A DNA stretch of 17,028 nucleotides, from NCBI GenBank assembly GCA_938003575.1, contig CALKYG010000319.1:1-17028 (forward strand), read 5' to 3'. Origin of the DNA: an uncultured Alphaproteobacteria bacterium. Lineage in GTDB: Bacteria > Pseudomonadota > Alphaproteobacteria > Caulobacterales > Parvularculaceae. The notes under the pieces were generated by a model, which ran no database searches, was not told the origin of the DNA, and saw only the letters and a list, made by a program, of their open reading frames with translations. Shown here piece after piece: positions 2,154 through 14,273 of the stretch; position 1 is the first letter of the stretch; the number at the start of each line of letters is the position of its first letter. The translations under genes and the position numbers were made by a program.

Positions 2154-2906
2154 ATGGAAGAAGAATTTGGGCGCATCGACGGCCCGAACGGCCGGCTCGC
2201 CTACCGCAAGCTGGATGGTTCGGGACCCGCAGTCGTCTGGCTTGGCGGGTTCCGCTCAGACATGAAGGGAACAAAAGCTGAAGCGCTGGCGGCCTGGGCG
2301 GCGCAGAACCGGCGGGCGTTCCTTCGTTTCGATTATTCCGGGCACGGCGAATCCGACGGAGACTTCCGGTCGGGTACGATTTCGGCGTGGCTCGCGGATG
2401 CGCGGGCCGCAATTGAACGTCTGACCGCGGGGCCGTTGATCGTCGTCGGATCCTCCATGGGCGGGTGGATCGCGGCTCTCGCGATTCCGGTCTTGAAGAA
2501 TCGCATCGCCGGCGCGGTATTCATCGCGCCAGCGCCCGATTTCACGGAAGAGCTTGTCTGGAAAGCGCTGACGGACGGCGAACGCGCAGCGATCCTGCGA
2601 GATGGGGAATATGTTGAAAAGTCTCAGTATTCAAGCGAACCAAACATCATCACGCGCGCCTTGATCGAAGACGGCCGCAAGCATCTGATCCTCGGCGGCG
2701 CGATTGATGTCGAATGTCCTGTACGGATAATCCAGGGCATGGCTGACCCCGATGTGCCCTGGCGACATGCGTTGAAATTCGCGAACCTTCTAAGGTCGCA
2801 GAACGTCGAGCTGCTGCTGATAAAATCCGGCGATCATCGGCTTTCTAAACCCCATGAGATCGCCCGAATCCTGAACGCTGTCAGTTCCGTTCAACTCGGC
2901 TCTTGA
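2154..2906 (+). CDS. Alpha/beta hydrolase (serine esterase/thioesterase-like)
   Basis: A 250-residue single-domain alpha/beta hydrolase with no signal peptide, so probably cytoplasmic. The start at 2154 (MEEEFGRIDG) avoids overlap with the divergent GT4 gene 70 bp away; the frame is open further upstream but without family similarity. The order is canonical: oxyanion strand VVWLGGF (27-33), RFDYSGHGESDG (58-69), nucleophile elbow G-S-S-M-G with S101, acid loop IIQGMADPDVPW (192-203) with D198 the likely catalytic acid, and SGDHRLS (225-231) with H228. The GSSMGGW elbow and the overall pattern resemble the ABHD10-like group of carboxylesterases and thioesterases, but the substrate is unknown. 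Its last 16 bases overlap the convergent PilZ gene. Confidence 0.85.
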   Translation: MEEEFGRIDGPNGRLAYRKLDGSGPAVVWLGGFRSDMKGTKAEALAAWAAQNRRAFLRFDYSGHGESDGDFRSGTISAWLADARAAIERLTAGPLIVVGSSMGGWIAALAIPVLKNRIAGAVFIAPAPDFTEELVWKALTDGERAAILRDGEYVEKSQYSSEPNIITRALIEDGRKHLILGGAIDVECPVRIIQGMADPDVPWRHALKFANLLRSQNVELLLIKSGDHRLSKPHEIARILNAVSSVQLGS

Positions 2907-3220
2907 AGAAACATCGCGCCGGCGAGCGATGTCGCCCGCCAGATGATCGTCGCGCGGCGAGCGCATTTGCCAAGGTCAATCTTGACGAGAATTTCCTCAG
3001 GCAACGCGTTGGCGTTCTCGATCTTGATGAGGCAGCCGCTGTCGCTGACATTGCGCACGACGCAATCAAGGGCGGTCCCGTCCTCCAGGATTATTTCTCC
3101 GGCCTTGAATGTCGGCGCGCGGACCGACCGCCGCCTCTCCTCAAGGTTGACGAGATCGATCGGGTCCGTCTTTCTGCGCGCCTGCCTTTTGCCGACGCCT
3201 GTCTTATTCTGATCGCTCAT
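2891..3220 (-). CDS. PilZ-domain protein (c-di-GMP binding)
   Basis: A 109-residue protein made almost entirely of one PilZ domain, the cyclic di-GMP receptor fold. The two binding signatures are both present: the R-x3-R arm in EERRRSVR (R30 and R34) and the N-x-S-x-x-G box NVSDSG (N57, S59, G62). The first ~25 residues are basic and probably flexible (KRQARRK). The ATG at 3220 is preceded on the minus strand by a good GGGAGAG ribosome site around 3228-3234. It has no output domain, so it would act by binding a partner, for example in motility or polysaccharide synthesis; no partner is identifiable here. It converges with the hydrolase gene with a 16-bp 3' overlap. Confidence 0.88.
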   Translation of the reverse strand: MSDQNKTGVGKRQARRKTDPIDLVNLEERRRSVRAPTFKAGEIILEDGTALDCVVRNVSDSGCLIKIENANALPEEILVKIDLGKCARRATIIWRATSLAGAMFLQEPS

Positions 3221-3392: not shown

Positions 3393-3421
3393 TTGCGACA
3401 TATGTAACAATGCGCTACATA
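3393..3421 (+). promoter_or_regulatory. Candidate promoter of the repressor/protease operon
   Basis: TTGCGA at 3393-3398 and TACATA at 3416-3421 are separated by 17 bases and form a plausible but weak -35/-10 pair. The implied leader before the ATG at 3456 is short and carries GGAG at 3445-3448. Both elements are overlapped by the inverted repeat at 3396-3426, which is the expected geometry for repression by promoter occlusion. The hexamers are imperfect matches, so the assignment rests on spacing and position. Confidence 0.4.
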
Positions 3422-3426
3422 TGTCG
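3396..3426. promoter_or_regulatory. BlaI/MecI-type operator, perfect 11-bp inverted repeat
   Basis: CGACATATGTA (3396-3406) and TACATATGTCG (3416-3426) are exact reverse complements separated by 9 bases. Each arm also contains its own 8-bp palindrome ACATATGT, with centres 19 bp apart, close to two helical turns. BlaI/MecI-family repressors are known to bind dyads of the TACA-NN-TGTA type as dimers, so this looks like two adjacent dimer sites. It lies 30 bp upstream of the BlaI-like gene, consistent with autorepression. Confidence 0.8.
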
Positions 3427-3455
3427 CCAGCCCAAGCCAAATCCGGAGAAATGCA

Positions 3456-3839
3456 ATGGCCGTCGATCCGTCGCTGCAGCCGACCAAACCAGAGCTCGCC
3501 GTGCTGAAGCTTCTCTGGCGGCGAAAGTCGCTGTCGGCGCGCGAAATAACCGATGTGGTCGCTCCCGAGTTCGACTGGACCTATTCGACCATGCGAACGG
3601 TCATCGAACGAATGTGTGAAAAAGGCCTCCTCAAGAAAAAATCCTCGGACGGCGTAAATGTCTATTCCGCAGCAATCGGAAAAGTTGCGCTCCTTTCACG
3701 AATGATCCTCGACTTTTCCGACCGCGTTCTCGAACTGGACGCGACCCCGTCGGCCGTCATGTTCGCAGATTCAAGACTCCTGTCTGACGATGAAATTGAA
3801 GAGCTCGAAAAGATCCTCAAATCGGAGAATCGAAAATGA
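3456..3839 (+). CDS. BlaI/MecI/CopY-family transcriptional repressor
   Basis: A 127-residue repressor. Residues 8-70 form the winged helix: QPTKPELAVLKLLW (8-21), SAREITDVV (27-35), the recognition region around DWTYSTMRTVIERM (40-53), and the wing with LLKKKSSDGVNVYSA (58-72). The C-terminal half (about 73-127) is the helical dimerisation segment, which in BlaI and MecI carries the protease cleavage site; LLSDDEIEELEKIL (107-120) matches the usual family ending. A GGAG ribosome site lies at 3445-3448. The gene sits behind the operator at 3396-3426 and its stop overlaps the ATG of the M56 gene by four bases, so the two are almost certainly translated together. It should repress its own operon and perhaps the pump. 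The name BlaI is by family only; no beta-lactamase gene is present. Confidence 0.92.
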   Translation: MAVDPSLQPTKPELAVLKLLWRRKSLSAREITDVVAPEFDWTYSTMRTVIERMCEKGLLKKKSSDGVNVYSAAIGKVALLSRMILDFSDRVLELDATPSAVMFADSRLLSDDEIEELEKILKSENRK

Positions 3840-6205
3840 GCGGTTTCGTCGGATTCACGCAATATCAGGCGGAAGCGCTGTTGATCTGCCTTATTGCATC
3901 GCTCGTTTGGGCCGGGATTCTGCTCGTCGGCGCACGTGGAATCGAGAGCGCCGCATCGATAAGATCAGCCGAACGGCTCTGGGCGGCGGCTTTGCTGTTT
4001 GCAATTCTTCCCTCGCTTGCCGCACCGACGCTCGCGGCTTTCGGGATTTCGCTGCGCGAGACGCCGATGCCCGTTGAGCGATCGCTAGAGTGGTCGGCGG
4101 CGGCTCCCAGCATGCTTTTAACGGCTGCAAACAACGAAGAGCGGTCCTTGTCAATCTCAACGGAACAGGTGATCGGCGCCGCCGCGCTTATTTATGTTTA
4201 TGGCGTCTTTCTCAGTCTTTTTCTCTGGGCGGCGCGGCAGGGAGGACTGCGGTTCGCCGTCGCCAGAGCAGAATTTGTGAGAGACAGCCGGCTCCTCGGC
4301 CGAATTGAAGAGTGGGCGGCGCGCCTTAATGCGCGGATGCCGGCGGTCAAGCGATCGCGCCATGTTTCGAGCGTATGCATCACCGGCGTCATGCGGCACA
4401 CGATTCTCATACCTCAAGGCATCGAGACCCGCGTCTCCTCGGACGATCTCGTCTTGATGTGCGCGCACGAGCTGGCGCATGTGCGTCGCGGCGACACCCG
4501 ACTTTTCACCGCCACGCAGCTTGCCCGCGTTCTTTTCTGGTTCAATCCGCTTGTCGCGCGCATCGCGTCAAATGCTGAGCTGGCGGCGGAAAAGAGCGCC
4601 GATGCGCTGGTCCTTGGGGCCGGCGTCGATCGACGCGCATACGCTGCGTGTTTTGTCGAAGGCCTGAAGTTTGCAGCATACAAGTTGAACGCCCAACCGG
4701 CGCTGACGCCCTCATTCACGCCGTCGGACCGCAACGGCCGGCGCAAGCGTCTGAACTCGATTCTCTCGCCTGAACCGGAGAGGCGCACGCCGATCGGCAA
4801 ACGTCTCCTGCTTTCAGCCGCAGCTTCAACTGTTGCGCTGGTTTCGCTGGGCCAGGCTGCGCTGGCGGTCGACCCGGAGAGCGCCGCCGATCGCAGGATA
4901 TCTCTTCGTAATTTTCCGGTGACGGGAAGCATCACACAGGCGTTCGGGGAAAAATCGCGCGCAACGGAAAGCGCCGAAGATCCGCGCCACGATGGACTCG
5001 ATATAAAAGCGCCTAAGGGTGCGAAGATAATTGCTCCCGGCGACGGCGTCGTCACTGAGGCTACTGACTATTACAATGACCGGCCGTCATGGGGCAAAGT
5101 CGTGGTGGTGGATCATGGTCGCGGCCTAGTCACCCGCTATGCGCATCTTGACAGCTATTCGGTCAAAAAGGGCCAGACTATAAAAGCCGGAGACGTGATC
5201 GCTAAAGTCGGCGATTCCGGAACAGTCACGGGTCCTCATCTCCATTTTGAGACTTTACGCAATGGCGAAGCGATCGATCCTGTTCGGGTCGTCGCAGGAG
5301 CTGGCGCCGCGCCCGAAGCGCCAGCGCCGGCGACAGCAGCGGCGGCGATCGCTCCTGAAGCGGCGAATTCGGAAGCCCCGACGCCGCCAATAGCGCCGCG
5401 GCCCGTGATTCCTGAAACGCCGTCGCCGGCAGCGGCGCCGGCGCCCGTCGCGCCGGATGTCAGCGAATTTTCGTTCAAGAATGCGCCTTCGGCTCCTGCC
5501 CGTTCGAGCGTCGACGGCGACGCCTTCGACGGCAGCCTCCTGGCGACGGCGACGGCGGAATATCTGGAGAGGCGCTTGCTCGGGGCCGCCAACGGCGAAA
5601 TCGACGGATCCTATCAGGTCACCCTCAAGAACGGGGACGCAGTTTACCGGTTCTCCAGCGATGAGCCGATGTCGGCGGCGCAGCGGTCGGAGTTCCGCAA
5701 GGCCGTCGCCGATTTGCGCAAGCAGGCGGAAAGGTGGCGGAAGGAAGCGGCGCAGCAACGAGAGAAATGGCGCCTTGAGCAGAAAAAGTTTGGATTAGGG
5801 CCGGAAAGTAAAACAGACGGCGCCGCCACGCCGAAATTCGAGAGCTGGGGCCAGGACCTCGCAGACATTCGCGAGGAATTCGAAGCAAGCCGCCGCGAAC
5901 ATCTTTTGATTCAGCGCAACGCCCTGGAAAAAGCCCGGGCCGCTATCGCGGATGGCATGCGCCGTGAACTCGAAGACGCGTTTTCTGACCTTGACGCCGC
6001 AAAGCGGGACCTGGAAAGCGCTGACATCCCGCGAGAGGAGCTGGCGGCTGCGCTCGCGGAGATACGGGAGCAGCGTCGACAGCTTGAACGGAACATGGAA
6101 ATCAGCAAGCGCGCGCATGACGCGGCTAGGCGTCAATTCGATCTTCAAATTGAAGAAGTGAATAGAATGTTAAAGGACTTGGACGAGCGGCAACCCGCAC
6201 CCTAG
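3836..6205 (+). CDS. M56 membrane metalloprotease fused to periplasmic M23 peptidase and coiled coil
   Basis: A 789-residue membrane protein. Hydrophobic segments lie at about 13-33, 47-69, 112-132 and 322-345. Between the third and fourth is the BlaR1-like M56 zinc protease: HELAH (H211, E212, H215) with the E-x3-D pair E252 and D256. By BlaR1 topology this part is cytoplasmic and would cleave the partner repressor. After the last membrane segment, where BlaR1 has its penicillin-binding sensor, there is a complete M23 (LytM-type) domain at about 355-485 with H385-x3-D389, H437 and H468-x-H470. M23 enzymes cut peptidoglycan cross-links. An Ala/Pro-rich linker (about 488-541), a small region (545-612) and a charged, predicted coiled coil (about 613-785) complete the periplasmic part. 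It overlaps the repressor gene by four bases. The fusion is seen directly; its role as a cell-wall sensor is inference. Confidence 0.9.
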   Translation: MSGFVGFTQYQAEALLICLIASLVWAGILLVGARGIESAASIRSAERLWAAALLFAILPSLAAPTLAAFGISLRETPMPVERSLEWSAAAPSMLLTAANNEERSLSISTEQVIGAAALIYVYGVFLSLFLWAARQGGLRFAVARAEFVRDSRLLGRIEEWAARLNARMPAVKRSRHVSSVCITGVMRHTILIPQGIETRVSSDDLVLMCAHELAHVRRGDTRLFTATQLARVLFWFNPLVARIASNAELAAEKSADALVLGAGVDRRAYAACFVEGLKFAAYKLNAQPALTPSFTPSDRNGRRKRLNSILSPEPERRTPIGKRLLLSAAASTVALVSLGQAALAVDPESAADRRISLRNFPVTGSITQAFGEKSRATESAEDPRHDGLDIKAPKGAKIIAPGDGVVTEATDYYNDRPSWGKVVVVDHGRGLVTRYAHLDSYSVKKGQTIKAGDVIAKVGDSGTVTGPHLHFETLRNGEAIDPVRVVAGAGAAPEAPAPATAAAAIAPEAANSEAPTPPIAPRPVIPETPSPAAAPAPVAPDVSEFSFKNAPSAPARSSVDGDAFDGSLLATATAEYLERRLLGAANGEIDGSYQVTLKNGDAVYRFSSDEPMSAAQRSEFRKAVADLRKQAERWRKEAAQQREKWRLEQKKFGLGPESKTDGAATPKFESWGQDLADIREEFEASRREHLLIQRNALEKARAAIADGMRRELEDAFSDLDAAKRDLESADIPREELAAALAEIREQRRQLERNMEISKRAHDAARRQFDLQIEEVNRMLKDLDERQPAP

Positions 6206-6314
6206 CAGCCCGGTTCGTCACTCCTGATTTTCCGCTTGTCGCATCAGCAATGCCTTTGGTCGAAATGCGCCCAAGGGCCCCTTGCCTTGATCGTCTCTGA
6301 AGGAGTTTATGTGA

Positions 6315-6330
6315 CGCGACACTTGTCGCG
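6315..6330. promoter_or_regulatory. Candidate second BlaI-type operator upstream of the RND pump gene
   Basis: CGCGACA (6315-6321) and TGTCGCG (6324-6330) form a perfect 7-bp palindrome with a 2-base centre. Its core ACACTTGT has the same ACA-NN-TGT form as both arms of the operator at 3396-3426, and it shares the outer GACA/TGTC with them. It lies about 33 bp before the pump start in the 157-bp gap after the M56 gene. A weak promoter-like pair (TTGCCT at 6282, GTTTAT at 6305) would put it at the transcription start. One such palindrome per window is not far from chance, so position and shared core are the argument. It could instead bind a TetR-type regulator. Confidence 0.45.
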
Positions 6331-6362
6331 CTTCAAAAGCCGCATGTCGATTCAGGGAGCGA

Positions 6363-9300
6363 ATGATGGGATTGACCAGGCTTTGCCTCAGGAATCCGGC
6401 AGCCGTCGGCGTCGTCCTTGCGTTAATTGCGCTCCTCGCGGTCATATCGGTTCAACGTCTTCCAATTCAATTGCTGCCTAACATCGAACGACCGGTGTTG
6501 GGCATCTGGACGGGATGGCGCGCCGCAAGTCCGCGCGAGGTCGAAAGCGAAATCATTGAGCCGGTAGAGCGAGAGCTGCGCGGGATTCCCGGACTGAAGT
6601 CAATGCAGTCCTGGTCCAATTCCGGCGGCGGCTTCGTCCAGCTCGAATTCGCGCTCGGAACCGACATGGACAAGGCGCTGACGGAAGTCACGAGCCGCCT
6701 TCAACGCGTGCGCGGCCTGCCGGCGGAGGCCGACCGCCCATCGGTCGGCGATTTCGGCGGCGGGAACGCCGGCGATACTCTGATCTTTCTTTTCCTTCAG
6801 CGCCTGCCCGGAGCCGACAACGCATCCGTCAGCATGACTGAGTTCGCGCGAGCGCGAATTGCGCCTGAATTGGAAGCGATTGAAGGCGTCGCAGGCATCG
6901 ACATCAATTCAGATGACGGAGAGGAAATTGTCAGAATCACATTCGACCCGTTTCGCCTCGCTCAGCTTGGCGTCACGATCGATGACGTCGCGCGGACCGT
7001 AAATCGCTCAACCGACGTAACTGGAGGGTCGGTTGAAGTCGGACGTCGAAATTACACGGTCCGATTTGAGGGCCGCTACGGCGCAGGTCAGCTCGGCCAG
7101 ACGATACTCGCATGGAGAGACGGCTCTCCCATTCGCCTCGCCGACGTGGCCGATGTTTCAGTTGTGAATAATCGGGGCGGCGGCGTCGTTTACCAGAACG
7201 GAAATCCGGCGATCGGCATGCGCGTCATCAGGGAGCCGGGATCAAACACTCTTGCCGCAATCGATGCGATCACCGAGAAAATCAATGAGCTGAACAACGG
7301 CCCGCTGGCGCAAATGGGCTATGCGGTACACAAGAGTTTCGACCCATCGCTCTTCATCAAGAACGCCTTGTCGATGTTGACGGGCAATCTCGTTCTCGGC
7401 GTCATCCTCGCGACAGCCGTTTTATGGGCTTTCCTGCGCCGGACGACGGCGACGCTGCTGATCGCGGCGGCGATTCCGGTTTGCCTCGCCTCAACGATCG
7501 TCTTCCTCAACATGACTGGAAGGTCGATAAACGTCATTTCCCTCGCCGGACTCGCTTTTGCGACGGGAATGGTGCTCGACGCCGCCATCGTCGTTCTCGA
7601 AAACTTCGTGCGCATGCGCGATGAAGGCCGCGAACCGAAGGAAGCGGCCGCGGCCGCCGTCAAACAGGTGTTCGGCGCGCTCTTCGCTTCAACCGTCACG
7701 ACGATCGCCGTTTTTCTGCCGATCATGTTTTTTGAGGATGTCGAAGGGCAATTATTCGCGGATCTGGCCCTGACAATCGCCGTCGCCGTATCATTCAGTC
7801 TCATTGTTGCGGCGACAGTCCTGCCGCTGGGCGCCTCGATTTTCATGAAAGAGAAAAAGAAGGCTCCAAGCAAAATCGCCAAGGCGTCAATTTTTGAGAT
7901 GATCCCGGAGATCGTGATGTCCATGACGGGCTCGCCGCGCAAGCGCCTTGCGTGGATTGCGGGTCTTACGGTCGCGCCCGTTGCGATCGGGTGGATGCTC
8001 TTTCCGTCGCTGAACTATTTGCCGCCGGTCAAGCGCGCCGCGATTGACGCCCAAGTATCCTTCCCGTCAGGCGCCAGCGCCGACATGATTAGGGAGGAGT
8101 TCGCAGACGTCGTGGTCAAGCGCCTTGACCCGTACATGAAGGGCGAAAAGGAGCCGGCGCTGCTCAATTATTACCTGTTCTCGGGATCATGGGGCGGCAG
8201 CATCGGCGTGCGGCCGAAAGTGCAATCGAAAATGGCCGAGCTGGAAAGGCTGGTGAACGAGGAAATTCTCACCGGCTTTCCGGATACGCGCGTCTTCGCC
8301 CGGCAGGGCGACCTTTTTGCGGAATTCGGCGGCGGCGGCGACATCAGAATTGATCTTCAAGCCGCCGATTACGATGCGCTGCTCAATTCCGTGCCCGCAG
8401 TCATGGATATTATTACCGCCGCAATACCGGGATCTTCCGTTTGGCCCAATCCCGATCCGCAGATTGTCAATCCCGAGATCAAGCTGATTCCAAACGATCG
8501 GCGGATTGCGGAAGTCGGCATGACGCGCGAAAGCGTCGCCAGCGCGCTGCGCGCTCTTGGAGACGGGCTGTGGCTCGGCGAGTTTTTTCACGAGGATTCG
8601 CGAATCGACATCCTGCTCCAGTCCAAGGAATGGGGCGAGCCCGAATATCTGTCGACCGTGCCGATTTCGACGCCCTCCGGCTCAATCGTTCCGTTGGGCG
8701 ACCTTGCAACAATTGAACGCAGCGTCGGCCCGCAGCAAATCAGCCGTATCGACGGGCGACGGACCATATCACTCGGCGTGATTGCGCCGGAAGGAATGGC
8801 GCTCGGCGACATCGTCGAAGCTTTGAAGGACGGCGCCGAAGAACAGATCTACGAGACGCTGCCCGCGGGCGCTTCACTAAAATACGCCGGAGAGGCGGAC
8901 AGTCTCAAGCGTGCGGTGTCCAACCTTGGCGGAAATTTCCTTCTCGCGATCGCAATCCTGTTTCTGGTTATGGCTGCGCTGTTCAAATCCGTTCGGGACG
9001 CCGCAATCGTCATTGTAGCGCTGCCCATGGCCGCGGTCGGCGGCGTCATTGCAATTCGCATCCTTAATATGGTTCACCAAACGCCGCTCGACCTTCTCGG
9101 CATGATCGGATTCATCATCCTGCTCGGAATTGTCGTGAACAACGCAATCCTTCTCGTCGAGCAAACGCGGCAGTCTGAAGCGGAAGGAAAGTCGCGCGAG
9201 GACGCGGTTCTTGAAGCCCTTCGGTTGAGAACCCGGCCGATCTTCATGACGACCGCGACGACGCTCATGGGCATGCTTCCGCTCATCATCGCCCCCGGGG

Positions 9301-9458
9301 AGGGAGCGCAGATTTATCGCGGCCTCGCCACCGTCATTTTCGGGGGGATGATGATATCGACGCTCTTCACGCTTCTACTGATGCCGGCGCTGCTCCAGCT
9401 CGGCGCTGCGAGAAAAAGGGTCAAGGGCGAGACCTTGATCCTTCAGCCCGCTGAATAG
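6363..9458 (+). CDS. RND-family efflux permease, HAE-1-like inner-membrane subunit
   Basis: A 1031-residue resistance-nodulation-division pump, the normal length, expected as an inner-membrane trimer exporting hydrophobic or amphipathic compounds on proton motive force. The first membrane helix is at about 13-30, the first periplasmic loop covers 31-335, helices cluster at 336-495, the second loop covers about 550-850, and the last helices run from 855 to 1012. Motifs include GMVLDAAIVVLENF (402-415), the repeated-half counterpart GIVVNNAILLVEQT (922-935) and RPIFMTTATTLMGMLPL (958-974). Of the AcrB proton-relay residues, one Asp of the pair is kept (D406, then Ala) and the Lys is Asn (N926). 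AGGGAG at 6354-6359 fits the second ATG at 6366 slightly better than the first at 6363. The adaptor gene follows 12 bp downstream; no TolC-type channel gene is present. The substrate is unknown. Confidence 0.95.
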   Translation: MMGLTRLCLRNPAAVGVVLALIALLAVISVQRLPIQLLPNIERPVLGIWTGWRAASPREVESEIIEPVERELRGIPGLKSMQSWSNSGGGFVQLEFALGTDMDKALTEVTSRLQRVRGLPAEADRPSVGDFGGGNAGDTLIFLFLQRLPGADNASVSMTEFARARIAPELEAIEGVAGIDINSDDGEEIVRITFDPFRLAQLGVTIDDVARTVNRSTDVTGGSVEVGRRNYTVRFEGRYGAGQLGQTILAWRDGSPIRLADVADVSVVNNRGGGVVYQNGNPAIGMRVIREPGSNTLAAIDAITEKINELNNGPLAQMGYAVHKSFDPSLFIKNALSMLTGNLVLGVILATAVLWAFLRRTTATLLIAAAIPVCLASTIVFLNMTGRSINVISLAGLAFATGMVLDAAIVVLENFVRMRDEGREPKEAAAAAVKQVFGALFASTVTTIAVFLPIMFFEDVEGQLFADLALTIAVAVSFSLIVAATVLPLGASIFMKEKKKAPSKIAKASIFEMIPEIVMSMTGSPRKRLAWIAGLTVAPVAIGWMLFPSLNYLPPVKRAAIDAQVSFPSGASADMIREEFADVVVKRLDPYMKGEKEPALLNYYLFSGSWGGSIGVRPKVQSKMAELERLVNEEILTGFPDTRVFARQGDLFAEFGGGGDIRIDLQAADYDALLNSVPAVMDIITAAIPGSSVWPNPDPQIVNPEIKLIPNDRRIAEVGMTRESVASALRALGDGLWLGEFFHEDSRIDILLQSKEWGEPEYLSTVPISTPSGSIVPLGDLATIERSVGPQQISRIDGRRTISLGVIAPEGMALGDIVEALKDGAEEQIYETLPAGASLKYAGEADSLKRAVSNLGGNFLLAIAILFLVMAALFKSVRDAAIVIVALPMAAVGGVIAIRILNMVHQTPLDLLGMIGFIILLGIVVNNAILLVEQTRQSEAEGKSREDAVLEALRLRTRPIFMTTATTLMGMLPLIIAPGEGAQIYRGLATVIFGGMMISTLFTLLLMPALLQLGAARKRVKGETLILQPAE

Positions 9459-9470
9459 GGACACCCCGTC

Positions 9471-10619
9471 ATGATGAGACTGACCTCCAGACGCCCGTTC
9501 AGACTAGCAGCCATAGCCGGCGTTCTCTTCACCGCAGCCGGCGGCGCGGCGTTTTTTATCGGCGCTTCCGGCCAGAAGTCGAATGCGGCGGCTGAAGCCG
9601 CCCCCGCCGGGCCGCCGCCCGCAGACGTCAGGGTGGCCGAGGCGGTGCTTACTGAACTCGCGCCGCACTCCGAAGCGCCGGGATCAGTGGTCAGCGTCAG
9701 CGACAGTCTCATCGCGGCGGCGACGGCTGGGAAGATTCTCTGGGTCGCCGATGTCGGCGCAGAAGTATCCGCAGGCGACATTATCGCGCGGATCGACCCT
9801 GCCGACGCAATTCTGCAACGGGATGAAAGCCGCGCGGATGTTAAACGCCTCGCGGCTCGCGCGGATTATTTGTCGAGACTTGTCGAACGGCATGAAGGGC
9901 TTGGCGAGGAGGGCGGCGAATCAGAAGCCTCCCTCGATCAGATGCGCGCCGACCGCGACGAGGCGCTGCAGAATCTCGAACGCGCCCGCGTTGCGCTGCG
10001 ACGCGCGGAAACCGCTTTGGAGCGCACGCAGGTGACGGCGCCGTTTTCCGGAAGGATTGCCGCCCGCGGCGTCGAGGTCGGCGAATTCGTGAATCCTGGA
10101 GGTGCTGTTGCGCGGCTGGTGAATACGGAAGAGTTGGAAGTCACCGCGCGCGCGCCGGACTCCCTTCTCACAGCGGTTGACGAAGGCGACCTGATCTCGG
10201 TTACAAACGGCGCGGAATCGCTCAACGCGCGCGTACGCGCCGTTGTCCCGGTCGGAGACACGATTAGCAGGACGCTTGAATTGCGACTCGTTTTGCCGAA
10301 AACCAACTGGCATATCGGATCGGCGGTGCAGGTCAGCCTCCCTCGCTCGGCGCCGAAGCGCGTCGTGGCCGTCAATCGGGACGCCCTGATCTTGCGCGCG
10401 AACAGCGTCAGCGTATTCGTCGTCGCCGAAGGCGGTCTCGCCAAACAGGTTGACGTCGAACTTGGCGCCGCTGAAGGCTCGTTGATCGAGGTGATCGGCG
10501 ACGTAAGCGCCGGAGACAAGGTTGTCGTTCGCGGCGGCGAACGTCTGAGAAACGGCCAGCCTGTCACGATTCAGGATATTGCGAATGGCGTCGCCGGGCC
10601 TGCCGGGCGGGCCTCCTGA
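9471..10619 (+). CDS. RND efflux periplasmic adaptor (HlyD/membrane fusion protein family)
   Basis: A 382-residue periplasmic adaptor linking the RND pump to an outer-membrane channel. An N-terminal membrane anchor or uncleaved signal occupies about 10-33, followed by an Ala/Pro-rich stretch. The first half of the lipoyl domain (AGKILWVADVGAEVSAGDII, 86-105) leads into an alpha-helical hairpin at about 112-186, and the second lipoyl half is RTQVTAPFSGRIAARGVEVG (185-204). A beta-barrel (about 220-295) and a membrane-proximal domain ending in GDKVVVRGGERLRNGQPV (348-365) complete the family order. TAGGGA at 9456-9461 is a suitable ribosome site and overlaps the stop of the pump gene, so the two are co-translated. 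The pump-then-adaptor order is the reverse of acrAB. There are only 19 bp to the convergent HPr gene and no clear terminator between them. Confidence 0.93.
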   Translation: MMRLTSRRPFRLAAIAGVLFTAAGGAAFFIGASGQKSNAAAEAAPAGPPPADVRVAEAVLTELAPHSEAPGSVVSVSDSLIAAATAGKILWVADVGAEVSAGDIIARIDPADAILQRDESRADVKRLAARADYLSRLVERHEGLGEEGGESEASLDQMRADRDEALQNLERARVALRRAETALERTQVTAPFSGRIAARGVEVGEFVNPGGAVARLVNTEELEVTARAPDSLLTAVDEGDLISVTNGAESLNARVRAVVPVGDTISRTLELRLVLPKTNWHIGSAVQVSLPRSAPKRVVAVNRDALILRANSVSVFVVAEGGLAKQVDVELGAAEGSLIEVIGDVSAGDKVVVRGGERLRNGQPVTIQDIANGVAGPAGRAS

Positions 10620-10638
10620 CGCATTGCGTAGTTTCCCG

Positions 10639-10938
10639 TCACTCTCCCTCGCCGAACTTGTCGGCGATGAGTTTTTTCAGCGTATCGATCGCTTCAGCGG
10701 CTTGAGGGCCCTTGGCTTCAAGCTCGATGGCGGAGCCAAGCCCCGCACCCAGCATAAGCAGCCCCATGATTGAACGGCCGCCGACAGTGATTGAGTCTTT
10801 GGTTACGGTGATTTTCGCGTCAAATGATCCCGCGACAGCGCAAAATTTCGCAGATGCCCGTGCGTGAAGTCCGCGGCGGTTGACAATCGTCACGACCGCC
10901 GATGCCGAATCATCGGATTGGGACGCGCGAGGGGTCAA
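10639..10938 (-). CDS. ptsH: HPr, phosphocarrier protein of the regulatory PTS
   Basis: A 99-residue HPr with about ten extra residues at the N-terminus. The active-site histidine is H25 in RRGLHARASAKF (21-32), which carries phosphate from enzyme I. The regulatory serine is S56 in GGRSIMGLLMLG (53-64), the site that HPr kinase modifies and that is Ser46 in the classical protein. The start is a TTG at 10938 that overlaps the EIIA stop as TTGA; no ATG lies before the essential region, and the only later candidate is a GTG at codon 16. It is the last gene of the chvI-chvG-hprK-EIIA-HPr run. No sugar-specific IIB or IIC genes are present, so a regulatory rather than transport role is likely. Confidence 0.93.
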   Translation of the reverse strand: MTPRASQSDDSASAVVTIVNRRGLHARASAKFCAVAGSFDAKITVTKDSITVGGRSIMGLLMLGAGLGSAIELEAKGPQAAEAIDTLKKLIADKFGEGE

Positions 10939-11342
10939 GCGCCCTCGCCGCCGAGCACCCAGGACGCGACGTTGATATATTTCCGTCCCGCCTCATGCGC
11001 TGCGGCGACCGCCTCCTTCAATGGCTTGTCCCCCCGAATTGAAGCCAGCTTGATCAACATCGGCAAATTGACGCCGGCGATCACTTCCGCATTCGCCTTC
11101 TCCATGACGGAAATCGCGAGATTAGACGGCGTGCCGCCGAACATGTCGGTAAGAATGATGACGCCTGCGCCGCCGTCCACACGCGCAGCGGCCGACACGA
11201 TATCGGCCCGGCGCTTTTCCATGTCGTCGTCCGCTCCGATCGAGACAGTTTCCACTTTTTCTTGCGGACCGACGACATGCTCCATGGCCGCAAGAAAATG
11301 CTCGGCCAGAGATCCATGCGTCACTATTACGAGCCCGATCAT
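10935..11342 (-). CDS. PTS EIIA component, mannose (ManX/EIIA-Man) family
   Basis: A 135-residue stand-alone EIIA of the mannose family. The phosphorylated histidine is H9 in IGLVIVTHGSLAEH (2-15), and the family loop LTDMFGGTPSN (64-74) supplies the conserved Asp. The remaining strands and GVNLPMLIKLA (90-100) match the family. The ATG at 11342 is preceded by a strong GAGGAAG site. It accepts phosphate from HPr; without EIIB, EIIC or EIID partners in the window it probably acts as a signalling output of the nitrogen/regulatory PTS, as is known for this alphaproteobacterial cluster. Forty-one bases separate it from hprK, and its stop overlaps the HPr start. Confidence 0.93.
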   Translation of the reverse strand: MIGLVIVTHGSLAEHFLAAMEHVVGPQEKVETVSIGADDDMEKRRADIVSAAARVDGGAGVIILTDMFGGTPSNLAISVMEKANAEVIAGVNLPMLIKLASIRGDKPLKEAVAAAHEAGRKYINVASWVLGGEGA

Positions 11343-11383
11343 TCTTCCTCTGCAATCTTCTGTGCGCCCTTATCCTGCGCACA

Positions 11384-11854
11384 TCATAGGATTTGTCCAT
11401 TCAAAATCGCTACGGCCATCTTACGGGCGCGGTGAGGCGCGCTCCCTTCCTGCCCCGCCCAGACGAAAGGGAACATCGGAATGCCGGGGCCGCCGGCGAT
11501 CGGCTGCAGAAGACTGCGTTCCGGCATCCTGGCGGCGCAATCCGCAAGATTGAGCGCAAGAAGCAACGGGACGCCTGAGTGCGACTTCAGGGGCGCTGGT
11601 CCGTATCCTCTTACCTCGAGCAGACCTTTAACGCGATCCGGCGCACTGGCGACGAGTTTGTCGCCCTCAGCCGTGATGATGGTGGCGTCGTCAGCCACCA
11701 GCAATGTTCGGGAATACCGGCACCCGTCGATCAGCGAAAGCGCCAACAGGGATTTTCCGGATCCTGTCGGGCCGAGTATCGCCAATCCTGCAAGCGGTCC
11801 GTCCGCATCGACGGCAAGCGCGACAGTCGTTGCGTGAATCAAGGCGGGACTCAT
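11384..11854 (-). CDS. hprK: HPr kinase/phosphorylase, short catalytic-domain form
   Basis: A 156-residue bifunctional enzyme that phosphorylates and dephosphorylates the regulatory serine of HPr. It has the Walker A loop GPTGSGKS (28-35), the acidic LLVADDAT segment with D55 and D56 (51-58), and the HprK signature LLEVRGYG (78-85). It lacks the N-terminal domain of Firmicute enzymes (about 310 residues), which is normal for alphaproteobacteria. The start at 11854 (MSPALIHATT) was chosen over the longer reading to 11890 because its ATG overlaps the chvG stop as ATGA and it begins at the first conserved residues. Its substrate HPr is encoded two genes downstream, with a serine in the right place. 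Confidence 0.92.
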   Translation of the reverse strand: MSPALIHATTVALAVDADGPLAGLAILGPTGSGKSLLALSLIDGCRYSRTLLVADDATIITAEGDKLVASAPDRVKGLLEVRGYGPAPLKSHSGVPLLLALNLADCAARMPERSLLQPIAGGPGIPMFPFVWAGQEGSAPHRARKMAVAILNGQIL

Positions 11855-13569
11855 GCGGTCGGCAACTCGACGACAAAACGAGCGCCGCATACGGCGCCGG
11901 CCTCGTCCGTCCGGTTCTCCGCCCAGATTACGCCGCCGTGACTCGCGACAATCTGGCGAGAAATCGCGAGCCCGAGCCCTGAATTATTGCCGAATGCCGA
12001 TCCTTGCGGGCGCTTGGTGTAAAATCTCGAAAAAATCTTCTCCAGCGCATCGGGCGGTATTCCAGGGCCGTCATCGTCAACAATAATCTGGGCGCTTCGA
12101 TGACGTTCCGTCGGCGGTGAAACATAGACGCGAACTTCACCGCCGGGCGGCGAAAACGACCTGGCGTTATCGATCAGGTTTCTGAAAACCTGACTCAGCG
12201 CAGTGGCGTTTCCGAACAGATAGATGGGCGACCCTGAAGGATCAAAACTCACGCGCGCCTCTTTGTCCTTGCCCGTCATTCTGTACAGTTCGGCGATATC
12301 GGTGAGGAGCTTTCTGATATCGACAGCCTCTCGCGCTTCGCGGGCAAGCTCCGCGTCAAGTCTTGACGCGTTCGAAATATCCGTGATCAGGCGATCCATT
12401 CGGGCGACATCTTTCTTGATGACGTCCATCAGCTTTTCCCGGGCTTCAGGCTTCGTCGCAATTTCAAGCGTTTCCGTTGCGCTGCGAATCGACGTCAGCG
12501 GATTCTTCAATTCGTGAGATACGTCGGCGGCAAAACTCTCGATCGCTTCAATTCGGGCGTATATCGCTTGAGTCATGGCGCGCAATGAGGCTGACAGCTC
12601 GCCGATTTCGTCGTTCCTGTGAGTGAAATCAGGAATGCGCGCGCGTCCGGCCGCGGCAATTCCCTCTCTCACTCTATCGGCTGCAAGCGCTAGATGGCGA
12701 ATTGGTTGAACGATCGCCGCCGTCAAAAGCAATGACGTCAGGATCGCGGCGGCGCATGCAAGGCCGAAGAAGGGTAAAATGGCGAGGCGCGCCTCGGAGA
12801 CGAGTTCCTCTATTCCGCCGGTTTCCGCCGTGACAAGTCCGTAAATCGCCTGAACGCGCCGGATCGGCACTGAAACCGAGGCGACAAGCTCGCCATCTTC
12901 ATTGAACCGGACCGACGTTGCGCCGCGCTCTTCAGCGAACGGCGAGGAAGCGAGGGCTTCGTTCAATTCATCTTCGATCGTTCTTTGCGCCGCATCTCTG
13001 CGGTAGCCGCCGGTCAAAAACCGTTCCAGAATGCTCCTCGACGTTTGTCCGAGCTTCCAGAAGGCGTTATCAGCCCGCGCGCCTTCGACCGGCGCCAGCT
13101 GCTCAACGACAATCTCATCTTCGCGCAGCATAACGTCGTCAATAAGCAGCGAACCTGCATCCTTGACGATTGGCGAATCTCCGGATCGGGGGGCGTTGAA
13201 AATGCGAACGCGCCCCTCAAAGCTGTCCCAGACGCGGTTGAACACCTCATTGACATCAGACTCAGACAACGTGTGGCTGCATATGCCGACGTCATCATCG
13301 CCCGCCGCGGCAGCCCCATCGCAGTCGGTTTCGGTGACTGCGGCCTGCGCAAGCACGTCAGCGAACAGCTGGGCCTGCGCGCGGACGCCCTCAAGCTTCG
13401 CCGCAACGAGGCCGTCGCGATATTGGGTGACGCCGAAAGATCCAACGAGAAGGATGACGAGGCCGATGAAGTTGGCGAGGACGATCGTCAGCGTCAGCCG
13501 CGACACGGCGACGCCGCCCCCCTCAAGCCGTGAGGGTCTGCGCGGTCGCTTGGCCGCCCCCTCCTTCAT
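11851..13569 (-). CDS. chvG: Sensor histidine kinase ChvG (ExoS)
   Basis: A 572-residue inner-membrane sensor kinase, partner of ChvI, which in rhizobia, Brucella and Caulobacter responds to acid and envelope stress. A first membrane segment (about 24-47) and a second (about 260-287) enclose a periplasmic sensor of roughly 210 residues. A HAMP region (288-340) leads to the phospho-accepting H-box SHELKNPLTS with H352, the N-box RNLIDNARSFSP (463-474), G1 DDGPGIP (499-505), the F-box around 513-518 and G2 GLGL (531-534). The periplasmic part has two cysteines, C83 and C97, that could form a disulphide. An upstream TTG at 13572 is possible, but the adjacent ATG at 13569 is preferred. ExoR, the usual periplasmic inhibitor, is not in the window. 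The stop overlaps hprK by four bases. Confidence 0.93.
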   Translation of the reverse strand: MKEGAAKRPRRPSRLEGGGVAVSRLTLTIVLANFIGLVILLVGSFGVTQYRDGLVAAKLEGVRAQAQLFADVLAQAAVTETDCDGAAAAGDDDVGICSHTLSESDVNEVFNRVWDSFEGRVRIFNAPRSGDSPIVKDAGSLLIDDVMLREDEIVVEQLAPVEGARADNAFWKLGQTSRSILERFLTGGYRRDAAQRTIEDELNEALASSPFAEERGATSVRFNEDGELVASVSVPIRRVQAIYGLVTAETGGIEELVSEARLAILPFFGLACAAAILTSLLLTAAIVQPIRHLALAADRVREGIAAAGRARIPDFTHRNDEIGELSASLRAMTQAIYARIEAIESFAADVSHELKNPLTSIRSATETLEIATKPEAREKLMDVIKKDVARMDRLITDISNASRLDAELAREAREAVDIRKLLTDIAELYRMTGKDKEARVSFDPSGSPIYLFGNATALSQVFRNLIDNARSFSPPGGEVRVYVSPPTERHRSAQIIVDDDGPGIPPDALEKIFSRFYTKRPQGSAFGNNSGLGLAISRQIVASHGGVIWAENRTDEAGAVCGARFVVELPTA

Positions 13570-13577
13570 CAACTCGT

Positions 13578-14273
13578 TCAGCTCTCCTTATATTTGTAGC
13601 CGACGCCGTACAGAGTCTCGATGGCGTCAAACTCCGGATCGACTACACGGAATTTCTTTCTGATTCGCTTGATATGACTGTCGATTGTGCGGTCGTCCAC
13701 ATAGACCTGATCATCGTAAGCGGCATCCATCAACGCATCGCGGCTCTTGACGAATCCGGGCCGTTGCGCAAGCGACTCAAGGATCAAAAACTCCGTAACC
13801 GTCAGAGTCACGGGTTCGCCCTTCCACAAACAGGCGTGGCGCATGGGATCAAGCGTCAGGCTAGACCGGCGAATGATCTGTTTCTCTTCCTCTTTCGTGG
13901 GGGTCGGGGCGGCGTTTCGCCGCCGCAGGACTGCCTTCACCCGCTCGAGAAGCAGACGCTGCGAAAACGGTTTCTTCACATAATCGTCCGCCCCCATGGT
14001 GAGACCGAGAACCTCATCGATCTCCTCGTCTTTCGACGTCAGGAAAATAAGCGGCAGATCCGACGCCTGGCGGATGCGCCGCAGCAGCTCCATTCCATCC
14101 ATGGTCGGCATCTTGATGTCGGAAATGACAAGGTCGGGCGGCGTCGCGGTGATTTCGGCGAGCGCAGACGCCCCCTCTTCAAAAGTCTTGACAGTATGGC
14201 CTTCGGCCTCAAGGGCCATTGAAACCGACGTCAGGATGTTCGCGTCGTCATCGACAAGGGCGATTATTGCCAT
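13578..14273 (-). CDS. chvI: Response regulator ChvI (OmpR/PhoB family)
   Basis: A 231-residue DNA-binding response regulator. The receiver domain (1-115) has the acidic pair D8/D9, the phospho-acceptor D52 in [11 protein letters not shown] (50-60), T79 and K101 in DDYVKKPF. The C-terminal winged helix (about 130-228) shows the OmpR-type pattern [18 protein letters not shown] (155-172), the recognition helix [17 protein letters not shown] (192-208) and the wing [11 protein letters not shown] (218-228). The ATG at 14273 is preceded by GAGGAAA. It is the first gene of the five-gene minus-strand operon and is followed by chvG after eight bases. The gene order with hprK and EIIA, plus the sequence, supports ChvI over other OmpR paralogues. 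Confidence 0.94.

Follow-up and report, generated by a model that had tools for sequence, protein, structure and literature searches.

What does a BlaI-type repressor govern, and what does its partner protease sense, when that protease carries an M23 peptidase domain in the place where BlaR1 and MecR1 carry a penicillin sensor? The question is raised by a 17,028-nucleotide stretch of contig CALKYG010000319.1 (the window), from an uncultured bacterium of the family Parvularculaceae (assembly GCA_938003575.1), in which a repressor gene, blaI, and a gene for an M56-M23 fusion protein are followed by the permease and adaptor genes of an RND-family pump. In BlaR1 and MecR1 the outer domain is class D-like and senses beta-lactams, as outlined in PMC7593790. 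From comparison with related genomes, we conclude that the pump of the window's lineage is very probably a direct BlaI target, and that the locus as a whole is best explained, with reasonable though far from full confidence, by a proteolytic switch of the BlaR1-BlaI type with an M23 outer domain, in which BlaI cleavage would release the pump. The features concerned are:

3456 to 3839, plus strand: BlaI/MecI/CopY-family repressor, 127 residues (Pfam PF03965, Penicillinase_R, E 2.6e-22, 79.8 bits against a cut-off of 22.6)
3836 to 6205, plus strand: M56-M23 fusion membrane protein, 789 residues, putative antirepressor protease
3932 to 4654, plus strand: M56 protease domain with H211, E212, H215, and E252 (Pfam, residues 33-273, E 5e-26)
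4985 to 5281, plus strand: M23 domain with zinc ligands H385, D389, and H470 and catalytic H437 and H468 (residues 384-482, E 7e-32)
6363 to 9458, plus strand: RND-family permease, 1031 residues (Pfam ACR_tran, E 1e-188)
9471 to 10619, plus strand: RND periplasmic adaptor, 382 residues (TIGR01730, 196.6 bits against a cut-off of 94.9)
3393 to 3410, unstranded: putative blaI operator 1, TTGCGACATATGTAACAA, a palindrome before blaI
3412 to 3429, unstranded: putative blaI operator 2, GCGCTACATATGTCGCCA, a palindrome 19 bp from operator 1
6314 to 6331, unstranded: putative pump operator, ACGCGACACTTGTCGCGC, 49 bp before the RND start
6252 to 6278, plus strand: GC-rich hairpin in the gap that separates the fusion and pump genes, resembling a terminator in some of the nearest relatives

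Coordinates and Pfam/NCBIfam domains confirm the gene set named in a first-pass annotation of the window (BlaI, M56-M23, RND, and adaptor), including the 4 bp (3836-3839, ATGA) by which blaI and the fusion gene overlap. Its remark that no beta-lactamase or penicillin-binding protein gene is present also stands, as no such domain was found among the 20 window open reading frames (ORFs) scanned with Pfam, some of which had no match; nor did the Pfam matches of these ORFs include an outer-membrane channel domain, and the channel may be encoded elsewhere. The ACA-NN-TGT palindromes that it described before the repressor and the pump are real, but their number had to be corrected to two before blaI and one before the pump.

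When at most one mismatch is allowed, the pattern CGACANNTGTNNC has nine matches on the two strands of the window against 3.2 expected, a count that 4 of 200 shuffles reach. Taken alone, the window palindromes are suggestive; it is their conservation in relatives that makes them convincing. A single contig scan provided 32 close loci (33 with the window), titled Parvularculaceae, Parvularcula, Marinicaulis, Amphiplicatus, or Alphaproteobacteria. The element lies before blaI, within the scanned interval, in 31 of the 33 loci, and most relatives have two copies, usually with a spacing of 19 or 28 bp; as to the remaining two loci, the contig edge truncates L019, and in L013 an exact site precedes the ORF start by 421 bp. 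A position matrix built from the 57 blaI-upstream sites of these 31 loci has a consensus of approximately TTGC(G/T)ACANNTGT(C/A)GCAA with a free center. The gaps between the fusion and RND genes were scored with this matrix, rebuilt each time without the tested locus, against 200 dinucleotide shuffles; seven loci without a following RND gene were left out, which gave 26 gaps. In this leave-one-out scoring the pump operator of the window reaches 17.3 bits, compared with a shuffle mean of -8.2, and seven gaps beat all 200 shuffles (the window, L001, L002, L003, L025, L030, and L032). An eighth site, in L031, is an exact match just beyond the scanned interval, the RND ORF start being over-extended.

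The distribution of these sites follows the tree of the fusion protein. By maximum likelihood, the window, L001, L002, L003, L023, L030, and L031 fall on one side with a support of 100/100 (clade A), and the pump operator is present in all six pump-bearing clade-A loci vs two of the 20 others (Fisher p 1.2e-4, kinship uncorrected), the latter two, L025 and L032, being a separate supported pair. When the six clade-A gaps are aligned, the arms GCGACA..TGT.GC are fixed, while the center dinucleotide and most of the surroundings vary. Fixed arms around a changing center are what selection on an operator would leave, and this footprint is the strongest evidence for a probable control of the pump by BlaI; for the window's lineage, it supports the earlier proposal that the pump is controlled through a shared operator. 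Across the close group at large, the pump is often not a BlaI target.

A separate transcription unit for the pump is only suggested. The GC-rich hairpin upstream of it has weak z values in the window (-1.4 over 51 nt, -0.4 over 105 nt) and L002 (-0.9) and stronger ones in L001 (-2.2 over 96 nt, -4.0 over 43 nt) and L003 (-4.0); a terminator scan reported nothing in the fusion-pump gap of the window. A sigma-70-like promoter read by eye over the blaI operators (TTGCGA, 17 bp, TACATA) was absent from the promoter scan and was not used.

Sites matching the exact pattern TGYKACANNTGTMRCA number 61 in 32 genomes, compared with 5 for a reversed-pattern control. They lie at blaI (32), the pump (2), TonB_C genes (8), genes of TonB-dependent-receptor type (4), LysM genes (2), and a DegP-like gene (1), the rest being internal to a MoxR gene (7) or a response-regulator gene (2) or in unclear places (3: near a histone-deacetylase-like gene, near a 486-residue gene without a Pfam match, and at one place in G001). 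Only two pump sites appear because most pump operators deviate slightly from the strict pattern. The seven sites within the MoxR AAA+ gene of seven genomes (L053, L054, L055, L056, L085, L125, and L130; identified by Pfam in L053, L055, and L056 and by 82-83% protein identity in the others) and the two within the response-regulator gene were set aside as probably coding, although they are still counted in the 61.

The TonB_C target could be followed further. A search of 26 genomes with the TonB_C protein of L065 gave 30 matches that were fetched, 19 of which adjoin ahcY or the PAS-kinase gene that follows it and are thus orthologues (L093-L110 and L112). An operator lies 82 to 276 bp before the matched TonB_C start in 15 of the 19 (L093-L107), in none of 1080 shuffles of the first 18 orthologue upstream regions, and in none of the 11 paralogues without the ahcY/PAS-kinase neighborhood. 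The orthologues without it are L108, L109, and L110, from the clade relatives G001, G002, and G005, and L112, from G003. In the genomes of L108-L110, where the TonB_C operator is missing, it is the pump, where there is one, that has an operator. This apparent shift of the operator from TonB_C to the pump in the window's clade would amount to a rewiring of the regulon, and G006 and G020 have an operator at both places. Marinicaulis flavus has the pair and the pump together but no operator in the pump gap (L021), and its TonB_C gene (L104) is among those that carry one. Another three TonB_C genes that have an operator (L128, L129, and L135) were found via the site and are outside the count of 15 of 19. 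Exact operators also mark the start of a TonB-dependent-receptor-type gene in each of four genomes (L058:4139-6334, L127:4062-6227, L134:4178-6394, and L133:2793-4103), and in relatives within the window's clade they precede a DegP-like gene (one genome) and a LysM gene (two genomes), at L063:4086, L064:4082, and L132:4083. The LysM gene is a tentative target, with an operator in two of the eight orthologues checked. In the 10 of 21 genomes that have a single PF03965 gene, the operators are unlikely to be read by a further BlaI paralogue, as far as the assemblies are complete; the 10 include G007, G013, G014, G015, and G017, with the TonB_C operator, and G001, G002, and G009, with the pump operator.

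The pair itself is more widespread than its link to the pump. BlaI immediately precedes the fusion gene in all 32 close loci. Contigs end at or just past the fusion gene in L004, L011, and L029, leaving 30 loci with enough downstream sequence, and in 26 of these the RND gene follows, with an adaptor gene that is complete in 22, cut by the contig in three, and unreached in L002. Since the close-locus neighborhood is largely syntenic (glycosyltransferases, hydrolase, HPr, EIIA, ChvG, and ChvI), adjacency alone proves little. Beyond the close type, a count by eye over 200 genomes sampled from the order gave at least 62 with a match spanning both M56 and M23 (22 of the close type and 40 distant); in a sample of 289 genomes from the class, two among the matches listed take in M56 as well as M23 (G003 and G033, which belong to the order sample too), and the other matches listed cover M23, or M23 with little before it (E up to 1e-45). 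Twenty of the 40 distant loci, mostly higher-scoring ones, were fetched. All 20 have a BlaI gene upstream, 17 of them within 4 nt or in slight overlap, two with over-extended ORFs, and the remaining one with a second M56 gene between BlaI and the fusion. Tandem M56 genes behind one BlaI are seen in L219:8072-11184, where only one has an M23 match. An operator scoring at least 12 is found near the blaI start in 17 of the 20, compared with a background of 4 in 587 windows. Because the distant pairs persist without a pump nearby, the module is BlaI plus M56-M23, with the pump as a lineage-specific attachment. The pair is a variant of the BlaR1 switch distributed across the order. The adjacency of pair and pump that the first-pass annotation had proposed to survey holds for most of the close loci and fails for the distant ones.

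As regards the protease, the HExxH...E motif is complete in the window fusion, and the M56 catalytic residues do not vary within three partly overlapping sets of 47, 25, and 173 rows, the largest comprising 121 homologues, the 32 loci, and the 20 distant members. A profile of the fusion matches the BlaR1 structures 8exp/8exs weakly (residues 111-263, E 0.0046), and the blaR1_generic model scores it at 56.4 bits, below the cut-off of 400; Pfam finds M56 and M23 alone in the fusion, without an outer domain of the penicillin-binding, class D beta-lactamase-like kind. The Kyte-Doolittle hydrophobic segments (10-38, 45-73, 110-134, and 320-346) are compatible with four membrane helices and would place M23 behind the last, and the C-terminal tail is charged, A/E/R-rich, and, judged by composition only, coiled-coil-like. 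The earlier view of an antirepressor-type BlaI/M56 pair with M23 as outer domain is supported. The closest homologue (P0003) is 98% identical and may derive from the same organism.

The repressor matches MecI/BlaI structures, and alignment with MecI in the Protein Data Bank places M102-F103 opposite the cleavage site N101-F102, the Asn not being kept and F103 being invariant in 33 of 33 close BlaIs. N101-F102 is given as the cleaved bond of MecI/BlaI in PMC3305447. The alignment and the conservation of F103 would be consistent with cleavage of BlaI by the partner protease.

Is the M23 domain a sensor or an enzyme? Among solved chains, phmmer matches it best to Pgp3 entries. The zinc ligands of Pgp3 (His168, Asp172, and His249) and its catalytic His216 and His247, as assigned in PMC6978369, align with H385, D389, and H470 and with H437 and H468 of the fusion, so that all five active-site residues are present in the window. 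All 20 distant members keep the zinc triad. H437, in contrast, is replaced in 10 of them (Gln in nine, Ser in one), and H468 is Gln in one. Of the 32 close loci, 23 have His at the H437 position, five have Gln, and four have a gap or other; among the last, L023 and L028 are without an M23 motif, L029 meets the contig end, and L032 has a split gene with the motif intact in its second ORF. The equivalent His is kept in 36 of 36 readable M23 domains from M23-only matches, which comprise 19 of 20 chosen from the order list and 17 of 18 class loci (L251 and L271 were unreadable). The loss in distant fusions differs from these unfused-type domains with a Fisher p of 6e-4 against the 17 and 5e-6 against all 36, kinship uncorrected, and some of the order-level controls may be pieces of divergent fusions. 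Because the metal site is retained while catalysis is relaxed, the pattern suits a binding or sensing role and would favor a sensor over an enzyme. The L023 fusion without the motif (10001-12166) occurs at a locus that has also lost the pump, and that of L028 (10001-12145) at one that keeps the pump without the operator.

In the switch that we propose, BlaI dimers on TTGCGACANNTGTNGCAA-type operators would repress their own operon and, in this lineage, the pump-adaptor unit, which has a separate operator. The M56-M23 protein would cross the inner membrane with the M23 domain in the periplasm, where the zinc site may engage peptidoglycan peptides or damage products and thereby switch on the cytoplasmic M56 protease; M56 would then cut BlaI near F103, and the pump would be released. 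The pair, the operators, and the retention of the pump operator in the clade are supported by comparison of sequences, and around them we infer BlaI binding and cleavage, the ligand, the topology, the direction of the response, and the pump substrate, with peptidoglycan as the leading hypothesis for the signal. More tentatively, it is quite possible that fusions across the order are BlaR1-like receptors in which a zinc-loaded M23 domain reads stem peptides, often with the hydrolase His switched off, and that BlaI proteolysis feeds a regulon rewired by lineage, namely the efflux pump here and TonB_C and TonB-dependent receptors in sisters.

Several findings weigh against this account, and especially against the claim of the first-pass annotation that efflux is the output, which did not survive in general form. 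The pump operator is absent from 18 of 26 gaps, where L017 scores weakly (1.8 bits, p 0.01). Four close loci have no following RND gene (L009, L018, L019, and L023): among 21 genomes searched, no RND protein was found at E up to 1e-150 in G005 (L023), G014 (L018), and G015 (L019), and in G003 (L009) the pump copy sits elsewhere, without an operator; some of these are incomplete metagenome-assembled genomes. No RND or adaptor homologue lies beside any of the 20 distant pairs within ~7-8 kb on either side (phmmer, tblastn), and outside the window's lineage the operator marks TonB_C and some TonB-dependent receptors. When one mismatch is allowed, the genome-wide count is 86 sites against 62 for the control in 20 genomes, an excess so small that weaker single sites are not to be trusted. 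The window M23 keeps every catalytic residue, so a working hydrolase is possible there, and the fusion ORFs of L023, the window's nearest row in the tree, and L028 have no M23 motif, so M23 seems dispensable to some pairs.

Part of this would be accounted for if the pair and the pump were mere neighbors by vertical synteny and the pump were regulated otherwise: much of the neighborhood is syntenic in close loci, 18 of 26 loci lack the pump operator, and no distant pair has a pump nearby. Yet the clade-A pump operator is retained in six of six loci while the flanking gap diverges, and the five scored clade-A sites each beat all 200 shuffles (L031 lying outside the scanned interval), which makes mere synteny very unlikely as an explanation in our judgment. 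Somewhat less implausible, but still unlikely, is that M23 is the effector, that is, an autoregulated, membrane-tethered wall endopeptidase, with M56 resetting BlaI upon another input. In its favor, the window and most close members keep all five M23 active-site residues; against this stand the replacement of the catalytic His in 10 of 20 distant and, by Gln, in 5 of 32 close loci with the zinc ligands kept, and the location of M23 at the position of the penicillin-binding-protein-type sensor of BlaR1.

A BlaI/CopY-like circuit in which the input is a metal or a substrate of the pump and M23 is a passive wall anchor has its attractions, as RND pumps often export metals and toxic compounds. The best NCBIfam match of BlaI is CopY/TcrY, albeit at 56.4 bits and under the cut-off of 121.95, and the two close loci without an M23 motif would fit as well; a precedent is PetRP, a BlaI/BlaR1-like pair serving copper, as summarized in the commentary PMC7896320. 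However, the zinc ligands are kept in 20 of 20 distant members and are not obviously needed by a passive anchor, and we rate this possibility as unlikely. For the permease itself, the top phmmer hit in solved chains is MdtB. Its residues 402-408 read G-M-V-L-D-A-A (window positions 7566-7586) in place of the pair of adjacent Asp residues that AcrB-type pumps carry at the equivalent position, which leaves the class and substrate of the pump uncertain.

If the BlaR1-type switch with an M23 sensor is correct, it would be a natural version of the M56/BlaI switch, uncoupled from beta-lactams by a wall-peptidase domain in the sensor position, and a simple route by which Gram-negative bacteria could report the state of the wall to efflux and envelope genes. 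The retention of the zinc site alongside repeated loss of the catalytic His makes a sharp prediction on binding vs cutting.

The surroundings of the locus comprise:

2891 to 3220, minus strand: PilZ gene (Pfam/NCBIfam scans of window ORFs)

and, 3' of the adaptor on the minus strand, genes for HPr, EIIA-man, an HprK-like protein, a ChvG-like kinase, and a response regulator. This opposite-strand block (10639-14273), with its ChvG/ChvI-like two-component genes, is syntenic in most close loci, and the ChvG-ChvI type is associated with envelope stress. PADLOC defence models gave no match for the three proteins tested, and no relative was found on viral contigs.

The architecture is already known as a label: NCBI lists an 'M23/M56 family metallopeptidase' (the Parvularculaceae homologue P0031) with the same domains, a name to which the sources consulted attach no function, operator, or regulon. 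The survey of M23 proteins in PMC9662197 counts M56 among catalytic partner domains, at <1% of hits, and gives the combination no function in the part consulted. A literature search, with most subscription papers outside its reach, found no account of a circuit that joins BlaI to an M56-M23 protein. The M23 peptidases and LytM factors Pgp3, ShyA, DipM, and EnvC share the family and the H...D/HxH zinc site, but are enzymes or amidase activators, for which the relevant passages of PMC9662197 and PMC8416486 describe no M56 fusion or BlaI pairing. PetR-PetP of Synechocystis resembles our system as a BlaI/BlaR1-type pair with a non-beta-lactam input, and differs in its copper-dependent control of petE/petJ, an M23 fusion being unmentioned in the text available from PMC7896320. 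According to PMC3305447, a peptidoglycan dipeptide binds BlaI/MecI and destabilizes the DNA complex, and PMC8457756 describes small BlaI regulons in Clostridium thermocellum, with the operon of the repressor among their members. The nearest likeness is to BlaR1-BlaI and MecR1-MecI of Staphylococcus and Bacillus licheniformis, which likewise set a BlaI-family repressor beside an M56 HExxH...E protease, with palindromic operators before the regulator and, by alignment, a conserved Phe at the cleavage site. They differ in having an outer penicillin sensor where the window has M23, and in their targets: the window ORFs scanned hold no beta-lactamase or penicillin-binding protein domain, and the target in this lineage is, very probably, an RND pump.

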